Below are positions 11,003-19,849 of a stretch of DNA of 64,000 nucleotides, piece by piece. Within the stretch, counting starts at the first letter, position 1; each line of letters starts with the position of its first letter. The position numbers and the translations under genes were made by a program. Location: NCBI RefSeq assembly GCF_004297125.1, contig NZ_SCVD01000001.1:124001-188000 (forward strand), written 5' to 3'. Source of the DNA: Phenylobacterium sp. (GTDB taxonomy: Bacteria > Pseudomonadota > Alphaproteobacteria > Caulobacterales > Caulobacteraceae). The notes beneath the pieces are model-generated. The model was not told the DNA's origin. It did no database searches and was given only the letters and a program-made list of their open reading frames with translations.

Positions 11003-12079
11003 ATGACCTTGTTCGATTCTCCGGCCTTCGAGGGTCATGAAGGTGTGCATGCCTTCTCGGACGAGAAGTCCGGCCTGAAGGCGATCATCGCCGTACATTC
11101 CACCGCCCGCGGGCCGGCCGCCGGCGGCTGCCGCATGTGGCCCTACGCCAGCGCGGAGGACGCGCTCACCGACGCCCTGAAGCTCTCGCGGGCCATGTCC
11201 TACAAGAATGCCATGGCCGACCTGGAGCTGGGCGGGGGCAAGTCGGTGATCATCGGCGACGCCCGCACCCAGAAGACGCCGGCCTTGTTCGAGGCGTTCG
11301 GCCGCGCGGTCGAGGGCCTGGGCGGCAAGTACTGGACCGCCGAGGACGTCGGCGTGTCGGTGGCGGACCTCACCTACGCCCGCAGGAACACGCGATACGT
11401 CGCCGGCCTCGAAGGCCACGCCGCAGCCTCCGGCGACCCCAGCCCGGTGACCGCCGAGGGCGTGTTCCGCGGCGTGCGCCTCTGCGTCCGGCGCGGTCTG
11501 AAGCGCGACCTGGACGGGGTGCGGGTAGCGATCCAGGGCATCGGCAACGTCGGCGGCCATCTGGCGCAGAAGCTCCACGCCGCCGGCGCCAAGCTGGTGC
11601 TGACCGACGTCAACGTCGAGGCCCTGCGCCGCGTCGCCGCCGCCACCGACGCGGAGATCGTGGCCCCCAGCGCCATCTTCGACGCCGACGTGGACGTCTT
11701 CGCGCCTTGCGCCCTGGGGGGCGCGGTCAGTCTCGACACCCTGCCGCGCATCCGCGCCAGGATCATCGCCGGCGGCGCCAACAACCAGCTGGCCGACGCC
11801 GAGACGGGCCGCGAGCTGTTCAACCGCGGCATCCTCTATGCCCCGGACTACGTCATCAACGGCGGCGGCATCATCAACGTGGCCGGTGAGATCCGGGCCC
11901 TGGAGCTTGGCGAGGCCTTCGATCCTGCCTGGGTCGACGCCAAGCTGGACCGCCTGGCCCTGACCCTCGAGGAAGTGCTGGAACAGGCCCTGGTCGAACG
12001 CCGCCCGACCCACGAGGTCGCCAACGAGATCGCCCGCTCCCGCATCGTCGGCGCCGCGGAGAAGCGCGCGGCGGCTTAA
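11003..12079 (+). CDS. Leucine/phenylalanine-type amino acid dehydrogenase
   Basis: A 358-residue Glu/Leu/Phe/Val dehydrogenase that should oxidatively deaminate a hydrophobic amino acid with NAD+. The N-terminal domain carries GPAAGGCRMWPY and KNAMADLELGGGKSVIIGD with the catalytic and substrate Lys residues. The Rossmann domain begins at VAIQGIGNVGGHLAQKL. Length and motifs fit the leucine dehydrogenase branch rather than the larger glutamate dehydrogenases. It overlaps the convergent exporter gene by 4 bp. No regulator is adjacent. Confidence 0.9.
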   Translation: MTLFDSPAFEGHEGVHAFSDEKSGLKAIIAVHSTARGPAAGGCRMWPYASAEDALTDALKLSRAMSYKNAMADLELGGGKSVIIGDARTQKTPALFEAFGRAVEGLGGKYWTAEDVGVSVADLTYARRNTRYVAGLEGHAAASGDPSPVTAEGVFRGVRLCVRRGLKRDLDGVRVAIQGIGNVGGHLAQKLHAAGAKLVLTDVNVEALRRVAAATDAEIVAPSAIFDADVDVFAPCALGGAVSLDTLPRIRARIIAGGANNQLADAETGRELFNRGILYAPDYVINGGGIINVAGEIRALELGEAFDPAWVDAKLDRLALTLEEVLEQALVERRPTHEVANEIARSRIVGAAEKRAAA

Positions 12080-13569
12080 GCCGCCGATCGCCGCCGGTCG
12101 CTGAGCAGCACCAGGGCGGCCGCGCCGCCGGCCGCCGAGATCGCCGCGGAGAGACCGGCGACGATCTGCAGGGCCTGCACGAAGGCGCTTCGGCTCTCGG
12201 ACAACAGGGCCGCGCCAGCCGCGCCGCCGATCCGCTCGGCTTCCGCCACGGCCAACCCCAGCGAGGCGTGGTCCGTGTTTGGGGCCAACGCCTGGTAGAT
12301 GGCGACGCCCAGGCTGCCCAGCAGGGCGATGCCCATGACGCCGCCGAACTCCGAGCCGGTCTCGGAGATCGCGCCCGCGCCGCCGGCCCGCTCGGGCGGG
12401 GCGGCGTTGAGGATCAGGTCCGACGTGAGCACGAAGGTCGGTCCGAGCCCCAGCGACATCACCACGCACGCCGTGACCAGAAGCGGCAGCCCGCCCCAGG
12501 AAACCTGGGTCAGCATCGCCAGGCCCAGCGCCAGCAGGCCCATGCCGCCGGCCACCACCCGCGAGGGACGCCCATGCTGCACGAACCACGGCGAGAGCAT
12601 CGAGCCCGCCGTGGTCGCGGCGGCCGACGGGAGCTGCCAGAGGCCCGCCTCCAGCGGGGACAGGCCCAGCACCAGCTGCAGGTACTGGGCGATGAACAGG
12701 AACGTCCCGAAGATCACCAGGCAGCCCAGCAGATTGATGGAGAGCGCCGTGGAGAAGGTCTTCGAACCGAACAGCGACAGGTCGATCAGCGGATCGGTCA
12801 ACCGCCTCTGTCGCTCGACGAACGCCCAGGCCAGCAGCAGGCCCACGACGACCGAGGCGCCGGCCAGGACCGAGGGCCCGGCCTCGGCGGTCCGCTTCAG
12901 TCCGTAGACGACCGCCAGGACGGCGCTCAGCGAGAGGCCGGCGCTGACGACATCGGACTTGCCGGCGTTGGGATCCTTGTATTCCGGCAGCAGCAGCGGG
13001 GCGGCGATCAGCACCAGCGCCATCACCGGCAGCGCCAGCAGGAAGACCGAGCCCCACGAGAACCACTGCAGCATCACGCCGCCCAGGACCGGCCCGATGA
13101 GGCCGCCGGCCGCATAGCCCGTGCCCCACGCCCCGATGGCGAAGGTGCGCTGGCCCTCGTCCTGGAACATGTGGCGGATCAGCGAGAGGGTGGACGGCGC
13201 GATGGTGGCCCCCGCCACGCCCAGCAGGGCCCGCGCGGCGATCAGGGCCTCGGCCGTAGGAGCGAAGGCCGCGAGGAGGGACGCCAGGCCGAAGGCCGCG
13301 GCTCCGAACATCAGCAGGCGCCGCCGGCCGATCCGGTCGCCCAGCGTGCCCATGGTGATCAGCCAGCCGGCGACCATGAAGCCATAGATGTCGACGATCC
13401 ACAGGAGCTGGACGGCGCTGGGCTCCAGGTCGGCGGAAAGCGAGGGAACGGCCAGGTTCAGGACCGTAAGGTCCATCGAATAGAGCAGGCACGGCAGCAC
13501 CACGAGGCCGAGCCCGATCCATTCGCGGCGCGTGGCTCGGGCGGGCGGGGTGGCGGCTATGGCCGTCAT
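12076..13569 (-). CDS. MFS transporter, DHA2 (EmrB/QacA-type) 14-helix exporter
   Basis: A 497-residue major facilitator with about 14 predicted membrane helices. Motif A reads GTLGDRIGRRRLLMFG after helix 2, and motif C-like glycine-rich segments (GGLIGPVLGGVML) mark a drug/H+ antiporter. Similar to SmvA/QacA-type multidrug exporters. It starts 56 bp after the stop of a small membrane protein gene on the same strand, so it might be the distal member of the Lgt-like/radical SAM run, but its function would be independent. Substrate unknown. Confidence 0.88.
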   Translation of the reverse strand: MTAIAATPPARATRREWIGLGLVVLPCLLYSMDLTVLNLAVPSLSADLEPSAVQLLWIVDIYGFMVAGWLITMGTLGDRIGRRRLLMFGAAAFGLASLLAAFAPTAEALIAARALLGVAGATIAPSTLSLIRHMFQDEGQRTFAIGAWGTGYAAGGLIGPVLGGVMLQWFSWGSVFLLALPVMALVLIAAPLLLPEYKDPNAGKSDVVSAGLSLSAVLAVVYGLKRTAEAGPSVLAGASVVVGLLLAWAFVERQRRLTDPLIDLSLFGSKTFSTALSINLLGCLVIFGTFLFIAQYLQLVLGLSPLEAGLWQLPSAAATTAGSMLSPWFVQHGRPSRVVAGGMGLLALGLAMLTQVSWGGLPLLVTACVVMSLGLGPTFVLTSDLILNAAPPERAGGAGAISETGSEFGGVMGIALLGSLGVAIYQALAPNTDHASLGLAVAEAERIGGAAGAALLSESRSAFVQALQIVAGLSAAISAAGGAAALVLLSDRRRSAA

Positions 13570-13625: not shown

Positions 13626-13883
13626 TCACGGCGACGGCGGGCGGTTCGCCTTCCAGCTCCGCAAGCCGTTCACCAGCAGCAGCAAGCCCGCGCCGGTCGG
13701 CAAGCCGCCGACGATCAGCGCGGTCCCGAGGATGAAGCCGCTGAGGCCGGCGTCCTCGCCGCGCAGGAGGCCGATCAGCCCGCCGCCACCGAAGATGAGG
13801 GTGCATGATCCGCACAGCAGGACCATGAGCCCACCCACCGCAACGAGGCCTCCGGCCACGAAACGGGTGGTCCTGTCGCTCAC
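13626..13883 (-). CDS. Small two-helix membrane protein B (paralogue of upstream protein)
   Basis: An 85-residue protein starting with GTG (VSDRTTRF) in a GTGA overlap with the upstream gene. Two membrane helices are visible (VAGGLVAVGGLMVLLCG… and GFILGTALIVGGLPTGAGLLLLV). It is clearly related to the preceding 97-residue protein: both have a G-L-M/I-x-LLCG-x-C segment in helix 1 and a VLGGLP/IVGGLP motif in helix 2. This suggests local duplication. It is the fourth cistron after the Lgt-like and radical SAM genes. Family not recognised. Confidence 0.75.
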   Translation of the reverse strand: MSDRTTRFVAGGLVAVGGLMVLLCGSCTLIFGGGGLIGLLRGEDAGLSGFILGTALIVGGLPTGAGLLLLVNGLRSWKANRPPSP

Positions 13884-14173
13884 GGGGCGTCTCCGCCGGC
13901 GCGCTCGATCCCGGCGGCAGGCGCCCGGCGCAGCGCTCGGCCCCAGACGAACAGTCCGAAGCCGACTGCCGCCGGCAGACCGCCCAACACCAGGGGCATC
14001 AGCAGCATGCCCGCGTCGTTCGGGTGGGCGAAGGTATCGACGAGGAAGGCCACGAAGAACAGGGCGCCGCAGCCGCCGCACAACAGCATGATCAGCGCGC
14101 CGACTGCGATCAGCGCCGCGCCGAAGAAGGCGCGGACGGGGCTCTGTGCTCCGGGAGATCGCGTTTCGCTCAT
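13880..14173 (-). CDS. Small two-helix membrane protein A
   Basis: A 97-residue membrane protein whose ATG overlaps the radical SAM stop (ATGA). Helix 1 is AALIAVGALIMLLCGGCGALFF and helix 2 is LLMPLVLGGLPAAVGFGLFVWG, with a short acidic loop (FAHPNDAG) between them and an Arg-rich cytoplasmic tail. The paired Cys residues in helix 1 (CGGC) are notable. It is paralogous to the next gene. The tight translational coupling argues that both work with the radical SAM/Lgt-like enzymes, perhaps as membrane partners; this is inference. Confidence 0.78.
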   Translation of the reverse strand: MSETRSPGAQSPVRAFFGAALIAVGALIMLLCGGCGALFFVAFLVDTFAHPNDAGMLLMPLVLGGLPAAVGFGLFVWGRALRRAPAAGIERAGGDAP

Positions 14174-15606
14174 CGCACCTGCCCCCGCTTCAAGGCGTCC
14201 GCTCCCGCCGCGCCCGGCCGATAGAAGGTGTTGAAGGTGTCGAAGGGGATGATCGTCCCGTCCGGCTGCACGAAGTGGACGCAGGAACGCTTTACCGTGC
14301 CCAGATCGAAGTTGAAGCGGTCCAGGAACTGGCTGACCACGACGCGGAAGGTGTTCTCATAGGCCACCTCCTGCGGCACGGCCGCCTCGGGCAGGCAGCA
14401 CAGCAGACTGGCCAGCTTCTCCGACGTATTGCCCTGGGCCGTGGACAGCGACAGCAGCTCGAACACCTGCTTGCGGAGTTCCGGATAGCTCTCGAAGGTC
14501 ACGGTGTTGGGCGCGGCGGCCACGAACAGCTCGCGCGGCAGCATGGCGGTGACCGGCTGCACCTGGCGACCGTTGCGCAGGCCGTATCCGATGCAGATCT
14601 GATCCGGATTGCAGGGCAGGGGGATCAGGTCTTCCAGCGCGAAGACTCCGGCCTCGGCGATGCGGCGGCGCACCTCGGTCAGGACCATGCGGTGGCGCTT
14701 GGCGTCGAAGCCGTCGTTGCGGCCGGCGTCCTGGATCGGCTGGAAGGTCACCCCGCGGACGCAGCGCCAGTCCAGGGCGAAGCGGACGATGTCGGCGATC
14801 TCGTCGTCGTTGACGCCCTTCTTCAGGGTGACCACCAGGGTGGTGGAGATGTCGTTGCGCTCCAGGGCCTCCAGCGCCTCGATCCGCACGCGGGTCAGGT
14901 CGGCGCCGCGCAGGTTCATCAGCGCCTCTCGCTTCAGGCTGTCGAACTGCAGATAGACTTCGAAGCCCGGCATATAACCCGCCAGCCGCTCGGCGAAGCC
15001 GGCCTCGCGGGCGATCCTGAGGCCATTGGTGTTGATCATCAGGTGGCGGATCGGCCGGCCCTTGGCCGCGTCCAGGATCTCCCAGAACTGCGGATGGAGT
15101 GTGGGCTCGCCCCCCGAGAGCTGCACCAGGTCGGGCTCGCCCTCGGCCGCGACGATCACGTCCAGCATGGCCTCGACCTCGGCCAGCGGCCGGTGCGCCT
15201 CGCGCTTCACCGAACTGTCGGCGAAACAGACCGGGCACGAGAGGTTGCAGGCCTCGTTGATCTCGAGGATCGCCAGGCACGAGTGCTGCTCGTGGTCCGG
15301 GCAGAGGCCGCAGTCGTAGGGGCAGCCGTGGTCGGTGCGGGTAGCCACCGACAGCGGCCGGTCGCCGGGCTTCAGCCAGTCGCGCTGGGATTTCCAATAG
15401 GCGATATCGTCGGCGATCAGCGTCTTCTGCACCCCGTGCTCGCGGCAGCGCTTGAGGTAATAGACCGCGTCGTCCTCGCCGATCACCTTGGCCGGGACCA
15501 GCTCCAGGCAGGTCTCACACAGGCTCGTGGTCTGGCCCAGGAACAGGTAGGGCGCGGCCTTCCGCACGGTCGCGGCGGAGGCTTCCGCGATAGTAGACCC
15601 ATCCAT
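14170..15606 (-). CDS. Radical SAM protein of the Tes/MJ0619 (tetraether lipid synthase-like) family
   Basis: About 478 residues from the ATG at 15606 (six residues more from 15624; a GTG at 15567 is also possible). Numbering from 15624, the cysteine pattern is C36-x2-C39, C60 in KRCREHG, C101/C105/C108 in CPYDCGLC-x2-H, and the canonical radical SAM CNLSCPVC (126-133), then GGEPT at 171. This multi-cluster layout matches the MJ0619/Tes family, whose archaeal members join lipid tails by C-C bond formation; related bacterial enzymes are largely uncharacterised. It overlaps the upstream Lgt-like gene by about 90 bp and the downstream small membrane gene by ATGA. A lipid substrate is inferred, not shown. 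Confidence 0.8.
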   Translation of the reverse strand: MDGSTIAEASAATVRKAAPYLFLGQTTSLCETCLELVPAKVIGEDDAVYYLKRCREHGVQKTLIADDIAYWKSQRDWLKPGDRPLSVATRTDHGCPYDCGLCPDHEQHSCLAILEINEACNLSCPVCFADSSVKREAHRPLAEVEAMLDVIVAAEGEPDLVQLSGGEPTLHPQFWEILDAAKGRPIRHLMINTNGLRIAREAGFAERLAGYMPGFEVYLQFDSLKREALMNLRGADLTRVRIEALEALERNDISTTLVVTLKKGVNDDEIADIVRFALDWRCVRGVTFQPIQDAGRNDGFDAKRHRMVLTEVRRRIAEAGVFALEDLIPLPCNPDQICIGYGLRNGRQVQPVTAMLPRELFVAAAPNTVTFESYPELRKQVFELLSLSTAQGNTSEKLASLLCCLPEAAVPQEVAYENTFRVVVSQFLDRFNFDLGTVKRSCVHFVQPDGTIIPFDTFNTFYRPGAAGADALKRGQVR

Positions 15607-16282
15607 AGGCGACCAGCCCCCCACACAGCAGATGGAACAGGTTAAGCGGCCCGATCAAAGGGGGATAGGGCTTCAGGAACTCCCAACCGAAGCGGGTGAG
15701 CCCGTACCATAAGCACAGGGCGTAGAAGCCGCGCCGCATCGCCCACGGCCTGCGCCGGGCCAGGCCTTCCAGATAGACGGCCAGGAACGCCGCCATCGCC
15801 AGGCTCTCGTAGGCCTGCACGGGGTGACGGCCGATCCCGTCGCCCAGCTCCACGGCCCAGGGCAGGGTCGTCGGCGCACCGTAGGTGCCGTCCGGCAGGC
15901 CGGCGAACAGGCAACCCCAGCGGCCGATCACCACGCCCAGGGCGAACGGCCCCACGAACACCCCGCCCGTCGAGCCACGCACCCCGCGCAACGCCTTGTA
16001 GATCTCCACGCCGACGATCGCGCCGACCAGGGCGCCGACCACGCTGTGCGACAGGGCCGGGTCGGCGTTCCGCAGGCTGTTCAGCGATCCCGCCAGCCAG
16101 GCGCCGGGGATCGCCCCAGCCACCAGGGCCGCGAAGTAGCCGCCGCCGACCTTACCGGCGACCTGCTCGGTCAGTCCTTTCAGCCGCCAGCGGTAGAGCG
16201 CGACGCTCAGGCCGATCCCCGCGGCCCACGCCGCGAGGTCGAAGGCGGCGTGCGCCCAGGTCGCGGTGGGGATCTGGATCAT
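15515..16282 (-). CDS. Prolipoprotein diacylglyceryl transferase (Lgt)-like membrane protein
   Basis: A 255-residue polytopic membrane protein of the LGT family (PF01790), shorter than canonical Lgt. It keeps the family's key segments: GRWGCLFAGLPDGTYG (about 120-135, containing the Arg of the GR-x-G motif) and RHPVQAYES (152-160, equivalent to HPxQLYE). The usual NFIN of housekeeping Lgt is replaced by GCLFAG, as in the accessory LGT-like branch. The strong overlap with the Tes-like radical SAM gene suggests coordinated synthesis. It may transfer or recognise a phospholipid diacylglyceryl group; it is unlikely to be the housekeeping enzyme. Confidence 0.82.
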   Translation of the reverse strand: MIQIPTATWAHAAFDLAAWAAGIGLSVALYRWRLKGLTEQVAGKVGGGYFAALVAGAIPGAWLAGSLNSLRNADPALSHSVVGALVGAIVGVEIYKALRGVRGSTGGVFVGPFALGVVIGRWGCLFAGLPDGTYGAPTTLPWAVELGDGIGRHPVQAYESLAMAAFLAVYLEGLARRRPWAMRRGFYALCLWYGLTRFGWEFLKPYPPLIGPLNLFHLLCGGLVAYGWVYYRGSLRRDRAEGRALPVPGPDHEPV

Positions 16283-16316: not shown

Positions 16317-16883
16317 TCAACCCTGCCGCGCCCGCCATGCGTCGCGATCCAGCCGCCAGACCTGCCCCTCGGCCGGGCCGCCGACGTAGTCGCGCGCCTC
16401 GATGGCGACCAGTTCGGCGCCCTGCTTCTCCTTCACCCGGCCGGAGGCCCGGTTGGCGACGGCATTGGTCAGGTAGAGGAAGGGCCAGCCCAGCACCTCG
16501 AAGGCGTAGGCGGTGACCGCTTCGGCCGCCTCCGTCATCAGGCCCCGGCCGTGCAACGCCGGGTCCAGCCAGAAGCCGCGCATGTCGCGCTTTTCGCCAT
16601 CGAATGGCCAGAGGTCGATGCGGCCCGCCAGCGTGTCGTCGCCGCCCTTCAGGGTGAGCGCCCAGAACGCCCTTTCGCCCTTGGCCCGCTGCTCCAGGCA
16701 CTGGGTCATGTTCGTCGCCGCCCCGTCGTCGGGGTAAGGCCACGGGACGCCGGCGTGCAGCCAGCGCACGACCTCCCACTGCGGGAAGATCCGCTGGACG
16801 GCGGGTATGTCGCGCGCTTCGATCGGACGCAGGATCAGTCGCGCCGTCTCCAGCACTGGGGTTGGGGGCAAGGGATCAGTCAT
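16317..16883 (-). CDS. GNAT acetyltransferase (RimJ/RimL-like)
   Basis: A 188-residue GNAT enzyme of the RimJ/RimL type (Acetyltransf_3). The N-terminus has ETARLILRPIEARDIPAVQ. The acetyl-CoA loop region is RGFWLDPALHGRGLMTEAAEA and the C-terminal part is LTNAVANRASGRVKEKQGAE. The stop lies 34 bp upstream of the Lgt-like start on the same strand, so it may head that operon. N-terminal or small-molecule amine acetylation is likely; acceptor unknown. Confidence 0.87.
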   Translation of the reverse strand: MTDPLPPTPVLETARLILRPIEARDIPAVQRIFPQWEVVRWLHAGVPWPYPDDGAATNMTQCLEQRAKGERAFWALTLKGGDDTLAGRIDLWPFDGEKRDMRGFWLDPALHGRGLMTEAAEAVTAYAFEVLGWPFLYLTNAVANRASGRVKEKQGAELVAIEARDYVGGPAEGQVWRLDRDAWRARQG

Positions 16884-17105: not shown

Positions 17106-18272
17106 TCAGGTCGGCGGCGCGGCCTCGCGCATCGGTTCCTCGGACGCCGCGGCCGCTGGCCGCGAGCGTTTCGGCTCCACCGCGGACGGCCTGTCGTCCT
17201 CGGAGTCCAGCCGGGCGCGGATGGTGCAGACCACGCCGTCGATGGGATAGGCGATCCGCACTTCGCCGTTGAGGTCCGCCGCCAGGCCGCGCTCGATCAG
17301 CCGGGTGCCGAACCCGGCGCGCGTGGGCGGGTTCACCCGCGGCCCGTCGACCTCGCGCCAGGTCGCCGTCAGCTCGCGGGGGCCGCCGCCTCGGGACAGG
17401 TTCCACGTGAAATCGATCCAGCCCTCGGAGGTCGACAGCGCACCGTACTTCACCGCGTTGGTGGCCAGTTCGTGCAGGGCCAACGCGATGGCGATGGCGG
17501 TCTTCGGCTCCAGGCGAACCTTGGGCCCCTTCGTCCGAATCCGGGCTTCGCCCAGGCCCAGGCGAAACGGCTGCAGCGCCTGGCCGACGATCTCGTCCAG
17601 ATCGGCGCCGGACCACTGCTCGTTGGTCAGCACGTCGTGCGCCTTGCTCAGCGCCACGATCCGCGCGGTCAGGGTGTCGCGCGTTCCAAGCGGCGCGCCG
17701 GCGGCGCGCAGGGTCTGTGCGACAATCGACTGCACGGTGGCCAGGGTGTTCTTCACCCGGTGGTTCAACTCGTTGATCAGCAGCCGCAGGTGCGACTGGT
17801 CCTGTTGCTGGCGGGTGATCGCCGCGCGCAGGTTTTCCAGGCGCTCGCGCGCTTCGTACTGCCGCCGACGCCCCCGCAGCGCCGTCTGTACGTGGCTGAC
17901 CAGCGTGGTTGGGTGGAAGGGACGCTCCAGGAAGCTGATGTTGCCCAGGGCGCGGCTGTAGCGCCCGGCCGCCGGGTTGCGCTCCAGTCCGCCGCCGCGC
18001 TGAGCCAGCACGATGATCGGGAAGTCGGACCACGATGGCTGGGCGTCGACCCAGCGCGCCAGCCCGCTGTAGTCGTCTTCCTGCAGGATCTCCTCGACGA
18101 TGAGCGCGACGCCTGCGCCACGCTCGCACTCGCGCTGCACCGACGCCAGGTCGGGGCAGATCTCGGCCATGAGCCCGGCCTCCCGCAACACGGCGGCCGC
18201 GACCGCGGCGTCCCGGCCGAACGGCGCGAGGATGAGCGCCCGTTCCGACGCCGAGTGCTGGCCGGCGATCAT
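17106..18272 (-). CDS. HWE-family histidine kinase with degenerate receiver domain
   Basis: A 388-residue soluble protein. Residues 10-132 have receiver-domain spacing, but the phospho-acceptor strand reads ALIVEEIL (Glu60/Glu61 instead of Asp) and the conserved Lys is Arg117 (FLERPF), so this is a pseudo-receiver. The kinase part has His171 in LINELNHRVKNTLATVQSI, the N-box HELATNAVKYGALS and the W-x-E (TATWREVDG) typical of HWE kinases. The C-terminus is a charged Ala/Glu/Pro tail. It overlaps the upstream KaiC-like gene (ATGA), so the two are translationally coupled and probably share a pathway. Confidence 0.9.
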   Translation of the reverse strand: MIAGQHSASERALILAPFGRDAAVAAAVLREAGLMAEICPDLASVQRECERGAGVALIVEEILQEDDYSGLARWVDAQPSWSDFPIIVLAQRGGGLERNPAAGRYSRALGNISFLERPFHPTTLVSHVQTALRGRRRQYEARERLENLRAAITRQQQDQSHLRLLINELNHRVKNTLATVQSIVAQTLRAAGAPLGTRDTLTARIVALSKAHDVLTNEQWSGADLDEIVGQALQPFRLGLGEARIRTKGPKVRLEPKTAIAIALALHELATNAVKYGALSTSEGWIDFTWNLSRGGGPRELTATWREVDGPRVNPPTRAGFGTRLIERGLAADLNGEVRIAYPIDGVVCTIRARLDSEDDRPSAVEPKRSRPAAAASEEPMREAAPPT

Positions 18273-19771
18273 TCGACTTTCGGCCCCAGCAGGCCGGACA
18301 CCTGGCCGACGAAATCCGGCACGCCGCGCAGCACGCCCTGGAACTGGGTCAGGGGCTCGCCGAGGCTGACGCCGCTCTGGTCGATGGCGTATTCACGGAT
18401 GGTGCGTTCGTGATGGCCCGCACGCTTCTTCACTACGGAGATCGCCCGGCGGACTTGGCCCATGGCCTCGAAATATCGAAGCAAAAGGACGGTGTCTGCC
18501 AAGTAGGTGACATCCACGGGCGACCTCATCTCGCCGACGAGCCCATGCTGTGCAACGGTCAGGTAGGTCGTGGCGCCCTGGCGGTTCAGGTACTGGAGCA
18601 GTTCGTGCATGTGCAGGAGCAGGTAGTGCTCCTCCGGCATGGAGGCCTGGTAGCCGTTCAGGCTGTCCATGATCACCGTGCTCACGTTGACGGTTGAGAC
18701 GCATTCGCGAACTCGCGCCGCGAATTCTCCCGGCGACAGTTCGGCCGCATCGACCTGTTCGATGATCATGTCGCCGCGCGCGCGCAGGCCCTCCAGGTCA
18801 AGGCCGAACGCCTTGGTGCGCTGGAACAGAAGGCCGAGCTCCTCGTCGAACACGAACAGCGCCACACGTTCTCCGCGTTCGATCGCGGCGATCGCGAACA
18901 GCAGGGTCAGCAGGGACTTGCCGGTCCCGGCCGGTCCCAGGATCAGGCAGCTCGAGCCGCGTTCGATCCCGCCGCCCAGCAGGTCGTCGAGCCCTGGGAT
19001 GTTGCAGGGTTGGGGGCTGCGGTCGAAGCTGGTCCGGTGCTCGGCCGAGACCAGCCGTGGAAAAACCTCGAGCCCACCTGTCCGGATGGCGAAGTCATGA
19101 TGGCCGCCGCGGAACCGACGGCCCCGGTACTTCGTCACCCGCACCCGGCGTCGCTCTGCGCCGTACTCCGGCGCCAGTTCTTCGAGCCGGATCACGCCGT
19201 GGGCCACGCTGTGCACCGTCTTGTCCGACGCCTCGGCGGTCAGGTCGTCCAGCAGGACGACGGTCGCCCCATGCCGCGAGAAGTAGTGCTTCAGCGCGAG
19301 GACTTGACGGCGATAGCGGAGCGAGCCCTGCGCCAGAAGGCGGATTTCCGACAGGCTGTCGATCACCACGCGGCTCGGCTTGGCGCGCTCGACGGCGTCG
19401 AGGATCAGGCGGGTCGTCTCGCCAAGTTCGAGGTCGGAGGAATAGAGCAGGCTCTGCTGCTGGTGCTCGTCCAGCAAATTCTCCGGGGGGACCAGCTCGA
19501 AGATATCGATGCCGTCCAATGTCCAGCCGTGCGACGCGGCGGTGTCGCGCAGCTCGGTTTCGGTCTCGGAGAGCGTGATGTAGAGGGTGGGTTCGCCAGC
19601 CTCGCGGCCGGCCATAAGAAAGCTCAGCGCCGCGGTGGTCTTGCCCGTGCCGGGGCTGCCCTCGAACAGGAACACGCGGCTTCGCTTGAGGCCGCCGGCC
19701 AGGATGTCGTCGAGCCCGGCGATGCCGGTGCGCGCGTCGTCGGCATGGACCGCCGCCGGGATATTCGTCAT
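18269..19771 (-). CDS. KaiC-like double-domain ATPase
   Basis: A 500-residue protein with two RecA/KaiC domains. Walker A motifs are GSPGTGKT (38-45) and GPAGTGKS (279-286). CII keeps the catalytic Glu pair (FDEEL, 310-311), whereas CI has SETETE. At the place of the KaiC autophosphorylation Ser431/Thr432 the sequence is VTYLADT, giving Thr422 and Tyr423. ATG 19771 follows GAGGGGAG. No kaiA or kaiB is nearby; the partner is the overlapping HWE kinase. KaiC homologues with kinases occur in non-cyanobacteria and are linked to light, stress or diurnal responses; exact role unknown. Confidence 0.9.
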   Translation of the reverse strand: MTNIPAAVHADDARTGIAGLDDILAGGLKRSRVFLFEGSPGTGKTTAALSFLMAGREAGEPTLYITLSETETELRDTAASHGWTLDGIDIFELVPPENLLDEHQQQSLLYSSDLELGETTRLILDAVERAKPSRVVIDSLSEIRLLAQGSLRYRRQVLALKHYFSRHGATVVLLDDLTAEASDKTVHSVAHGVIRLEELAPEYGAERRRVRVTKYRGRRFRGGHHDFAIRTGGLEVFPRLVSAEHRTSFDRSPQPCNIPGLDDLLGGGIERGSSCLILGPAGTGKSLLTLLFAIAAIERGERVALFVFDEELGLLFQRTKAFGLDLEGLRARGDMIIEQVDAAELSPGEFAARVRECVSTVNVSTVIMDSLNGYQASMPEEHYLLLHMHELLQYLNRQGATTYLTVAQHGLVGEMRSPVDVTYLADTVLLLRYFEAMGQVRRAISVVKKRAGHHERTIREYAIDQSGVSLGEPLTQFQGVLRGVPDFVGQVSGLLGPKVE

Positions 19772-19849
19772 CTCCCCTCGTTTGTGATCTTGCCGTGAAG
19801 CTGGCGCCTCCACCCCGAGCGAAAATGCGCGTCCGGGGCTGCGGTTCCG

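Follow-up and report, generated by a model that had tools for sequence, protein, structure and literature searches.

The window, a 64,000-nucleotide stretch of a Phenylobacterium sp. contig (NZ_SCVD01000001.1, positions 124,001 to 188,000), carries a minus-strand operon of four open reading frames (ORFs) that encode, in this order, an Lgt-like membrane protein, a radical S-adenosylmethionine (SAM) protein of the Tes/TrsS superfamily and two small membrane proteins, S1 and S2. It is almost certain that these three parts (Lgt-like, radical SAM and small proteins) form one system. The architecture of the operon is well supported; from it we infer the chemistry, and tentatively read the operon as a possible dedicated lipid-anchor modification system that runs in parallel with the usual lipoprotein pathway; in it, the Lgt-like enzyme would act on the cysteine of a G-x-C motif conserved in the small proteins. 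The genes are as follows.

15515..16282, minus strand: Lgt-like membrane protein, 255 amino acids; divergent PF01790 paralogue (Pfam, NCBIfam, residue mapping to Escherichia coli Lgt, AlphaFold2 (AF2) model)
14170..15606, minus strand: Tes/TrsS-superfamily radical SAM protein, 478 amino acids from the ATG at 15606 (Pfam, NCBIfam, alignment, AF2 model)
13880..14173, minus strand: S1, two-helix small membrane protein, 97 amino acids; G33-G34-C35, Cys codon 14071-14069
13626..13883, minus strand: S2, paralogue of S1, 85 amino acids with a GTG start; G25-S26-C27, Cys codon 13805-13803

Counted from the radical SAM ATG, the first two genes overlap by 92 bp (an in-frame GTG at 15624 is a possible alternative start); the radical SAM–S1 junction is an ATGA overlap and the S1–S2 junction a GTGA overlap. 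S2 is taken as 85 residues, the mechanically listed frame of 151 residues being an over-extension. A first-pass annotation of the window had the frames, strand, coordinates and ATGA/GTGA overlaps right and proposed an uncharacterised bacterial system; the association of an Lgt-family protein with small membrane proteins and a radical SAM protein of the Tes superfamily stands, but this last protein falls outside Tes proper. The host genome is 5.77 Mb; among named relatives, Phenylobacterium and other Caulobacteraceae are the nearest.

Linkage and distribution of the gene pair

Scanning contigs with one genome per species found 137 relatives, of which the best 80 were kept as named loci. An Lgt-like gene lies upstream on the same strand in 79 of these 80; the remaining locus, L076, begins inside the radical SAM gene, so that linkage is 79 of 79 where upstream sequence exists. 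The pair is patchy, occurring (own genome included) in 6/60 genomes of the genus and order, 6/385 of the class and 12/398 of the phylum. An independent profile search for the Lgt-like protein (E ≤ 1e-22) in the phylum sample returned the same 12/398 genomes as the radical SAM protein, and an Lgt-like gene is nearby in all 16 class and phylum loci, own locus included; two of them, highly divergent and from small genomes, have it downstream. Linkage of the two genes is thus close to obligatory; the first-pass annotation had named homologues never linked to lgt-like genes as a refutation, and the opposite is seen.

The pair extends beyond this phylum. A plasmid tblastn search matched 10 records, and four of the seven fetched carry the pair: Persicobacter (Bacteroidota), Nonomuraea and two Mycobacterium (Actinomycetota). 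The other three (Mycolicibacterium and two haloarchaeal plasmids) have a methyltransferase and no Lgt. A homologue is present in 52/343 genomes from the phylum of a metagenome-assembled genome (MAG) titled Planctomyces, presumably Planctomycetota, which we sampled as 30 listed places (L143–L172) and 20 further regions (L173–L192). An Lgt-like gene was found within the first flanks in 30 of the 36 loci L143–L178, and a 31st (L172) showed one 3.5 kb away after the flank was widened. Three of the five remaining loci start close to a contig start (L157 and L165 within 260 bp, L166 within 0.8 kb), a fourth (L158) ends ~100 bp beyond the radical SAM gene, and the fifth (L167) has no Lgt-like gene in the 12 kb fetched. 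All three of L188–L190 carry the gene; no Lgt-like gene was found in the regions fetched for the other 11 loci (L179–L187, L191 and L192), five of which have at least two radical SAM genes.

A quick maximum-likelihood tree of 63 radical SAM rows, in which several long branches make the deep order unsure, puts the window type among 28 rows that form one clade and of which 27 are Lgt-linked (Shimodaira–Hasegawa-like approximate likelihood ratio test (SH-aLRT) support 100). Another group, with 15 rows (support 87), has 13 linked, or 14 after flank widening. A third clade of 14 rows (support 100) is entirely unlinked and takes in the loci that have multiple radical SAM genes. The Tes of Methanocaldococcus jannaschii, MJ0619, clusters with two Planctomycetota-type rows (SH-aLRT 99), apart from all three groups, and TrsS-like rows fall elsewhere.

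Three side observations concern these sets. The bacterial rows that group with MJ0619 (L186 and L191) make stronger candidates than the window protein for a true bacterial Tes. Loci L179, L180, L181, L184 and L185, from the presumed Planctomycetota, have at least two Tes-superfamily radical SAM genes near one another and form a clade of their own; no Lgt-like gene was found in the regions fetched for these five. In L070, L071 and L072, from MAGs titled Kuenenia and Planctomycetaceae/Planctomyces, the system is 66–67% identical to that of the window; L070, the one of these placed in the tree, nests with Sphingomonas, reflecting recent transfer or misbinning.

Signatures of the two enzymes

The radical SAM protein combines a Radical_SAM domain (PF04055) with an HMPTM zinc ribbon (PF23545). 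As the first-pass annotation had recognised, it has the multi-cluster cysteine layout of tetraether lipid synthase: alignment reveals C-x2-C-x20-C-x2-H, a C-x3-C-x2-C plus His, and the radical SAM C-x3-C-x2-C, the same motifs as given for MJ0619 (PMC9433317). Its closest relatives are likewise Tes and TrsS rather than unrelated methylases, and MJ0619 is its only strong relative in the PDB. In the structural comparison with archaeal Tes, the AF2 model (mean predicted local distance difference test (pLDDT) score 77, with residues 364–414 poor) matches 7tom and 7tol at template modelling scores of 0.78 and 0.77. Among the 110 rows of the main clade, N-terminal and radical SAM cluster residues are kept in 109–110, the single exception being an X.

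The C-terminal part differs. C332, C403, C404 and C442 are kept in 110/110 main-clade rows, and the first three align to S, S and V of MJ0619. Conversely, the position of MJ0619 C438 is I or V in the main clade and that of C470 is D or E, both residues being numbered by counting from the reported M439, where our MJ0619 copy is short of ~36 residues. Within the C-terminal cluster domain, M439 and Y459 are fully conserved in archaeal Tes (PMC9433317); the window protein has S425 and F445 at these positions. Across the 110 rows the M439 position holds S in 32, L in 31, M in 22 and V in 19, with others in the rest, and the Y459 position is F in 88, I in 21 and M in one, never Y. The NCBIfam Tes equivalog (NF045702) is not reached either (261.8 bits against a 450-bit cut-off), so score, clade and C-terminal domain residues together rule out Tes proper. 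The best NCBIfam score is to TrsS (NF045646), still below its cut-off (301.1 against 490 bits), and TrsS is ruled out by this score and by the neighbouring genes.

The upstream gene had been annotated as LGT family. It does belong to PF01790 (62 bits; gathering cut-off 24.9), but it is not the lipoprotein enzyme: scores against the NCBIfam lgt equivalogs are far below their cut-offs (14.3–19.8 bits against 118.9–428), residues required in E. coli Lgt are replaced, and a canonical lgt is present elsewhere in the genome. A duplicate of canonical Lgt is excluded on the same three grounds. In each of eight chosen genomes there are exactly two PF01790 genes, a canonical one elsewhere (240–272 bits) and the Lgt-like one (55–83 bits); five further genomes, four of them MAGs, have 2, 1, 3, 2 and 2, the single gene being the Lgt-like one. 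The AF2 model of the Lgt-like protein has a mean pLDDT of 93.

Six residues are required in E. coli Lgt: Y26, H103, R143, N146, G154 and R239 (PMC13251419). The window protein keeps R143, G154 and R239, has H at the Y26 position and C at N146, and lacks a His at H103; the head domain is nearly absent from the alignment. In its own numbering, the counterparts of R143, R239 and N146 are R121, R197 and C124. We surveyed 129 distinct Lgt-like proteins adjoining radical SAM genes. The N146 position is C in all 129 and the H103 position is never His; Y26 is replaced by H in 110 (Y in 16, gap in 3). Retention elsewhere is near-complete: R at R143 in 127 (K in the other 2) and at R239 in 128 (one gap), Y at Y235 in 128 and G at G154 in 125, with G142, H196, Y201 and E202 also kept in nearly all. 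It is established that Lgt uses R143 and R239 to bind phosphatidylglycerol (PG), whose diacylglyceryl group it transfers to the cysteine at the end of the signal helix; these arginines place the PG phosphate, and H103 and the head domain are suggested to help place the protein substrate (PMC13251419). Since the PG-placing arginines are kept and H103 and the head are changed, the lipid half of the enzyme appears to be retained and the acceptor half altered.

Small membrane proteins and flanking genes

The first-pass annotation listed two small membrane proteins, which do exist, but overlooked their conserved cysteine. S1 and S2 belong to the same profile family. A profile seeded with both, iterated on ORFs from the radical SAM stop codon onward alongside control regions, identifies the family in 84 of the 104 loci that have 400 bp or more available downstream (a set that includes three TrsS-like loci and the fragment L009), with at least two copies in 28/104 and none among 772 control ORFs. 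Most S genes begin 4 bases before the end of the radical SAM stop. In 111 distinct rows, the G of G-x-C is present in all and the C in 110; beyond the motif, just one further column is fully fixed, a Gly of helix 2. Counts of K+R over D+E (337/156 before helix 1, taking in some over-long starts; 55/170 in the loop; 319/107 after helix 2) predict the termini inside and the cysteine end outside. With this conserved cysteine, the likeliest role of the Lgt-like protein shifts from merely holding acyl chains, as in the first-pass annotation, to possible action on a protein cysteine.

Of the 20 loci without an S-family match, three are TrsS-like and 17 Lgt-linked, and 15 of the 17 have another small transmembrane protein with a G-x-C past a hydrophobic stretch (GTC, GGC, GVC, GSC, GGLC, GIC). 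The Actinomycetota version places GxCTG[LI]NP at the very C terminus (for example, SGGLCTGLNP or SAGICTGINP). In a strict G-x-C scan the motif is found in 95 of 122 adjacent small transmembrane ORFs and 3 of 128 distant controls (77 of 101 loci, some S-profile loci such as L063 and L068 being missed through start-codon and overlap filters). After the loci (158) had been grouped by radical SAM identity at a 60% level to cut relatedness, an adjacent small transmembrane protein with a cysteine at the end of the transmembrane stretch was present in 18 of 20 Lgt-linked clusters (the exceptions being L104 and L188) against 3 of 16 unlinked ones. This G-x-C cysteine, and its like placement at distant loci, is new here. 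Among small proteins of the Planctomycetota type, multiple helices are common and some members have a zinc ribbon; in L174–L178 they lie upstream of the radical SAM gene and have an N-terminal CPECGA...CWIC zinc ribbon and C-terminal helices ending in Cys. S1 and S2 give a weak match, below cut-off, to the phage holin family PF07332, which we reject because the S family is tied to the radical SAM gene.

Beyond these genes, little recurs. Comparing the ORFs of about 85 loci (L004–L089), the families found in most are the pair, the small proteins and their shadow frames, and we define the cassette as the pair together with the small proteins. A histidine kinase neighbours it in 10 loci, mainly Phenylobacterium types, and a short-chain dehydrogenase/reductase (SDR) oxidoreductase in nine (median 1.2 kb downstream); major facilitator superfamily (MFS), acyl-CoA dehydrogenase, aldehyde dehydrogenase and other families reach 6–7 loci each. 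No protease, exporter or other maturation gene is among the conserved neighbours in this comparison. Within the window, neither flanking gene is taken as part of the system: the MFS transporter (12076–13569, minus strand) starts 56 bp past S2, and the MFS gene that recurs elsewhere is a different one; the GNAT acetyltransferase (16317–16883, minus strand) ends 34 bp before the Lgt-like start. Genes of the MFS and GNAT types recur in only 6 or 7 loci of close relatives, or not at all. Upstream of the operon, past the GNAT gene, a KaiC-like two-domain ATPase (18269–19813, minus strand) overlaps an HWE-family histidine kinase (17106–18272, minus strand), a possible signalling pair.

Possible chemistry and comparison with known systems

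The retained PG residues, the changed acceptor parts and the cysteine proteins encoded alongside together suggest that the Lgt-like enzyme loads lipid onto the S-protein cysteine. S1 and S2 would then be substrates: the enzyme would bind PG, or a modified form of it, via the conserved arginines, and move diacylglyceryl to the G-x-C cysteine at the periplasmic end of the helix. Tes binds phospholipids in hydrophobic pockets and acts on chain termini, and a lipid–sulfur intermediate has been proposed on its C-terminal cluster (PMC9433317). By analogy, a Tes relative with other C-terminal cysteines may couple or alter the chains of donor PG or of protein-bound lipid. Working on the cytosolic side, the radical SAM enzyme might modify the acyl chains of the lipid or the lipid–cysteine product, for example by C–C or C–S coupling at a chain end. 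We give cysteine lipidation by the Lgt-like enzyme, like the dedicated anchor system as a whole, somewhat less than an even chance, and any particular radical reaction a lower one. The fullest version, a second bacterial lipidation pathway in which a divergent Lgt diacylglycerylates a cysteine inside small transmembrane proteins and a Tes-like enzyme couples or alters the chains to give a radical-modified anchor, is doubtful.

Several observations weigh against lipidation of the small proteins. Y26, H103 and N146 are required in E. coli Lgt and all are replaced, so diacylglyceryl transfer may have been lost, and Foldseek returned no match at E ≤ 0.001 for the Lgt-like model, E. coli Lgt included. 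PMC13251419 also describes working Lgts with small head domains and other Lgts with Y, W or F at H103, and cites an older proposal of H103 as the catalytic base; given such variants and that proposal, the losses in the Lgt-like protein cannot be read cleanly as marking a new acceptor. The G-x-C differs from a standard lipobox in having its small residue at −2, not −1, and the hydrophobic stretch of the S family continues beyond the cysteine. L007 has PAC, L106 only a larger protein with a lipobox-like start, and many Planctomycetota-type small proteins either end in a Cys that is not part of a G-x-C or contain several cysteines; the small proteins of different lineages may not be homologous. 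Under a looser rule for transmembrane cysteines, 122/158 ORFs score but so do 56/260 control ORFs, and the 16 unlinked clusters include some cut by contig ends. As to linkage, the Lgt-linked label takes at least four changes on the tree; two radical SAM proteins inside Lgt-linked groups (L167/L193 and L192/L196) have no Lgt-like gene in the 12 and 17 kb fetched; and loci were fetched by homology with some genomes doubled (L004/L013, L005/L030, L006/L084), so that the counts are not independent. We found no chemistry reported for any family member.

Three other explanations were weighed. The system might instead serve bulk lipid synthesis, with the radical SAM enzyme joining or altering chains of free phospholipids, the Lgt-like protein presenting or flipping PG and the small proteins as scaffolds. 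The Tes fold and cluster motifs and the retained PG-binding arginines agree with this, and bacterial Tes homologues are proposed to make lipids of the branched glycerol dialkyl glycerol tetraether (brGDGT) type (PMC8941075; PMC11868695); we nevertheless think it rather unlikely, because the clade is separate from MJ0619, the M439 position is M in only 22/110 rows and the Y459 position never Y, occurrence is patchy in near genomes and in the phylum (6/60 and 12/398, own included), and the conserved cysteine of the small proteins is left unexplained. That cysteine is central to an explanation by peptide modification, in which tandem, precursor-like paralogues would be modified by the radical SAM enzyme (for example, to a G-x-C thioether) and lipidated or anchored by the Lgt-like protein. 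Small, fast-evolving proteins with one conserved cysteine, in at least two copies in 28/104 loci and adjoining a radical SAM gene, would suit such precursors. Set against this, a Pfam scan of the window radical SAM protein finds no SPASM or peptide-recognition domain, the conserved neighbours include no protease, exporter or maturation gene, and the cysteine is placed within a membrane helix or at its end, which together make peptide modification unlikely.

More improbable again is an Lgt-like protein devoid of transferase activity that acts as a membrane anchor or electron-supply partner, its N146C and the G-x-C cysteines forming a redox or metal site for the radical SAM enzyme. Replacement of H103, Y26 and N146 and the constancy of both cysteines (129/129 Lgt-like and 110/111 S rows) fit this arrangement, but R143, G154, Y235 and R239 are nearly invariant and would be needless for a mere anchor, and the S alignment shows no other conspicuous metal-ligand pattern.

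Among the literature matches listed, in a search whose scope left most subscription papers and preprints outside, we recognised no description of this gene set. It joins two strands, bacterial Tes homologues and N146C Lgts, in one conserved set with a candidate acceptor. If radical-modified anchoring is correct, some presumed bacterial Tes genes would not be lipid-biomarker genes, and protein lipidation would have a second, radical-assisted branch.

Compared with Tes, also called GDGT-MAS (MJ0619; 7tol and 7tom), the window radical SAM protein shares domain order, fold and the spacing of the rubredoxin-type, N-terminal and radical SAM cluster motifs; unlike Tes, it scores below the family cut-off, belongs to another clade, has other C-terminal cysteines and comes from a bacterial system with Lgt-like and usually small transmembrane partners. 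Mss, compared by description only, is proposed to join alkyl chains and is said to share the catalytic architecture of Tes; its account in PMC13274423 gives Ger as the brGDGT partner and describes no Lgt or small transmembrane-cysteine partner. TrsS, although giving the best NCBIfam score of the window protein, is likewise not reached by the two plasmid TrsS-like genes scanned (336 and 339 bits). TrsS-like plasmid loci have methyltransferase and thiol-redox genes, and neither an Lgt-like gene nor an adjacent small transmembrane ORF was found in them; L108, L111 and L113 (Mycolicibacterium and haloarchaeal plasmids) place TrsS-like and methyltransferase genes beside CcdA/disulfide oxidoreductase or peroxiredoxin/redoxin genes. 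No methyltransferase lies next to the window radical SAM gene or among the recurrent neighbours of L004–L089, a criterion drawn from these plasmid loci and not from the family definition.

With Lgt, the Lgt-like protein has in common PF01790 and G142, R143, G154, H196, Y201, E202, Y235 and R239; it differs in the replaced Y26, H103 and N146, in its nearly absent head domain and in coexisting with a canonical Lgt elsewhere in the genome. Distant Lgt proteins with N146C and E151C/D have been described, Y26H and N146C occurring together in MSMEG_5408 as in the Lgt-like protein, and the description of Lgts of this type in PMC13251419 mentions neither a radical SAM partner nor a special substrate. 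The tie of an N146C Lgt to a radical SAM gene and to transmembrane-cysteine proteins is from this analysis.

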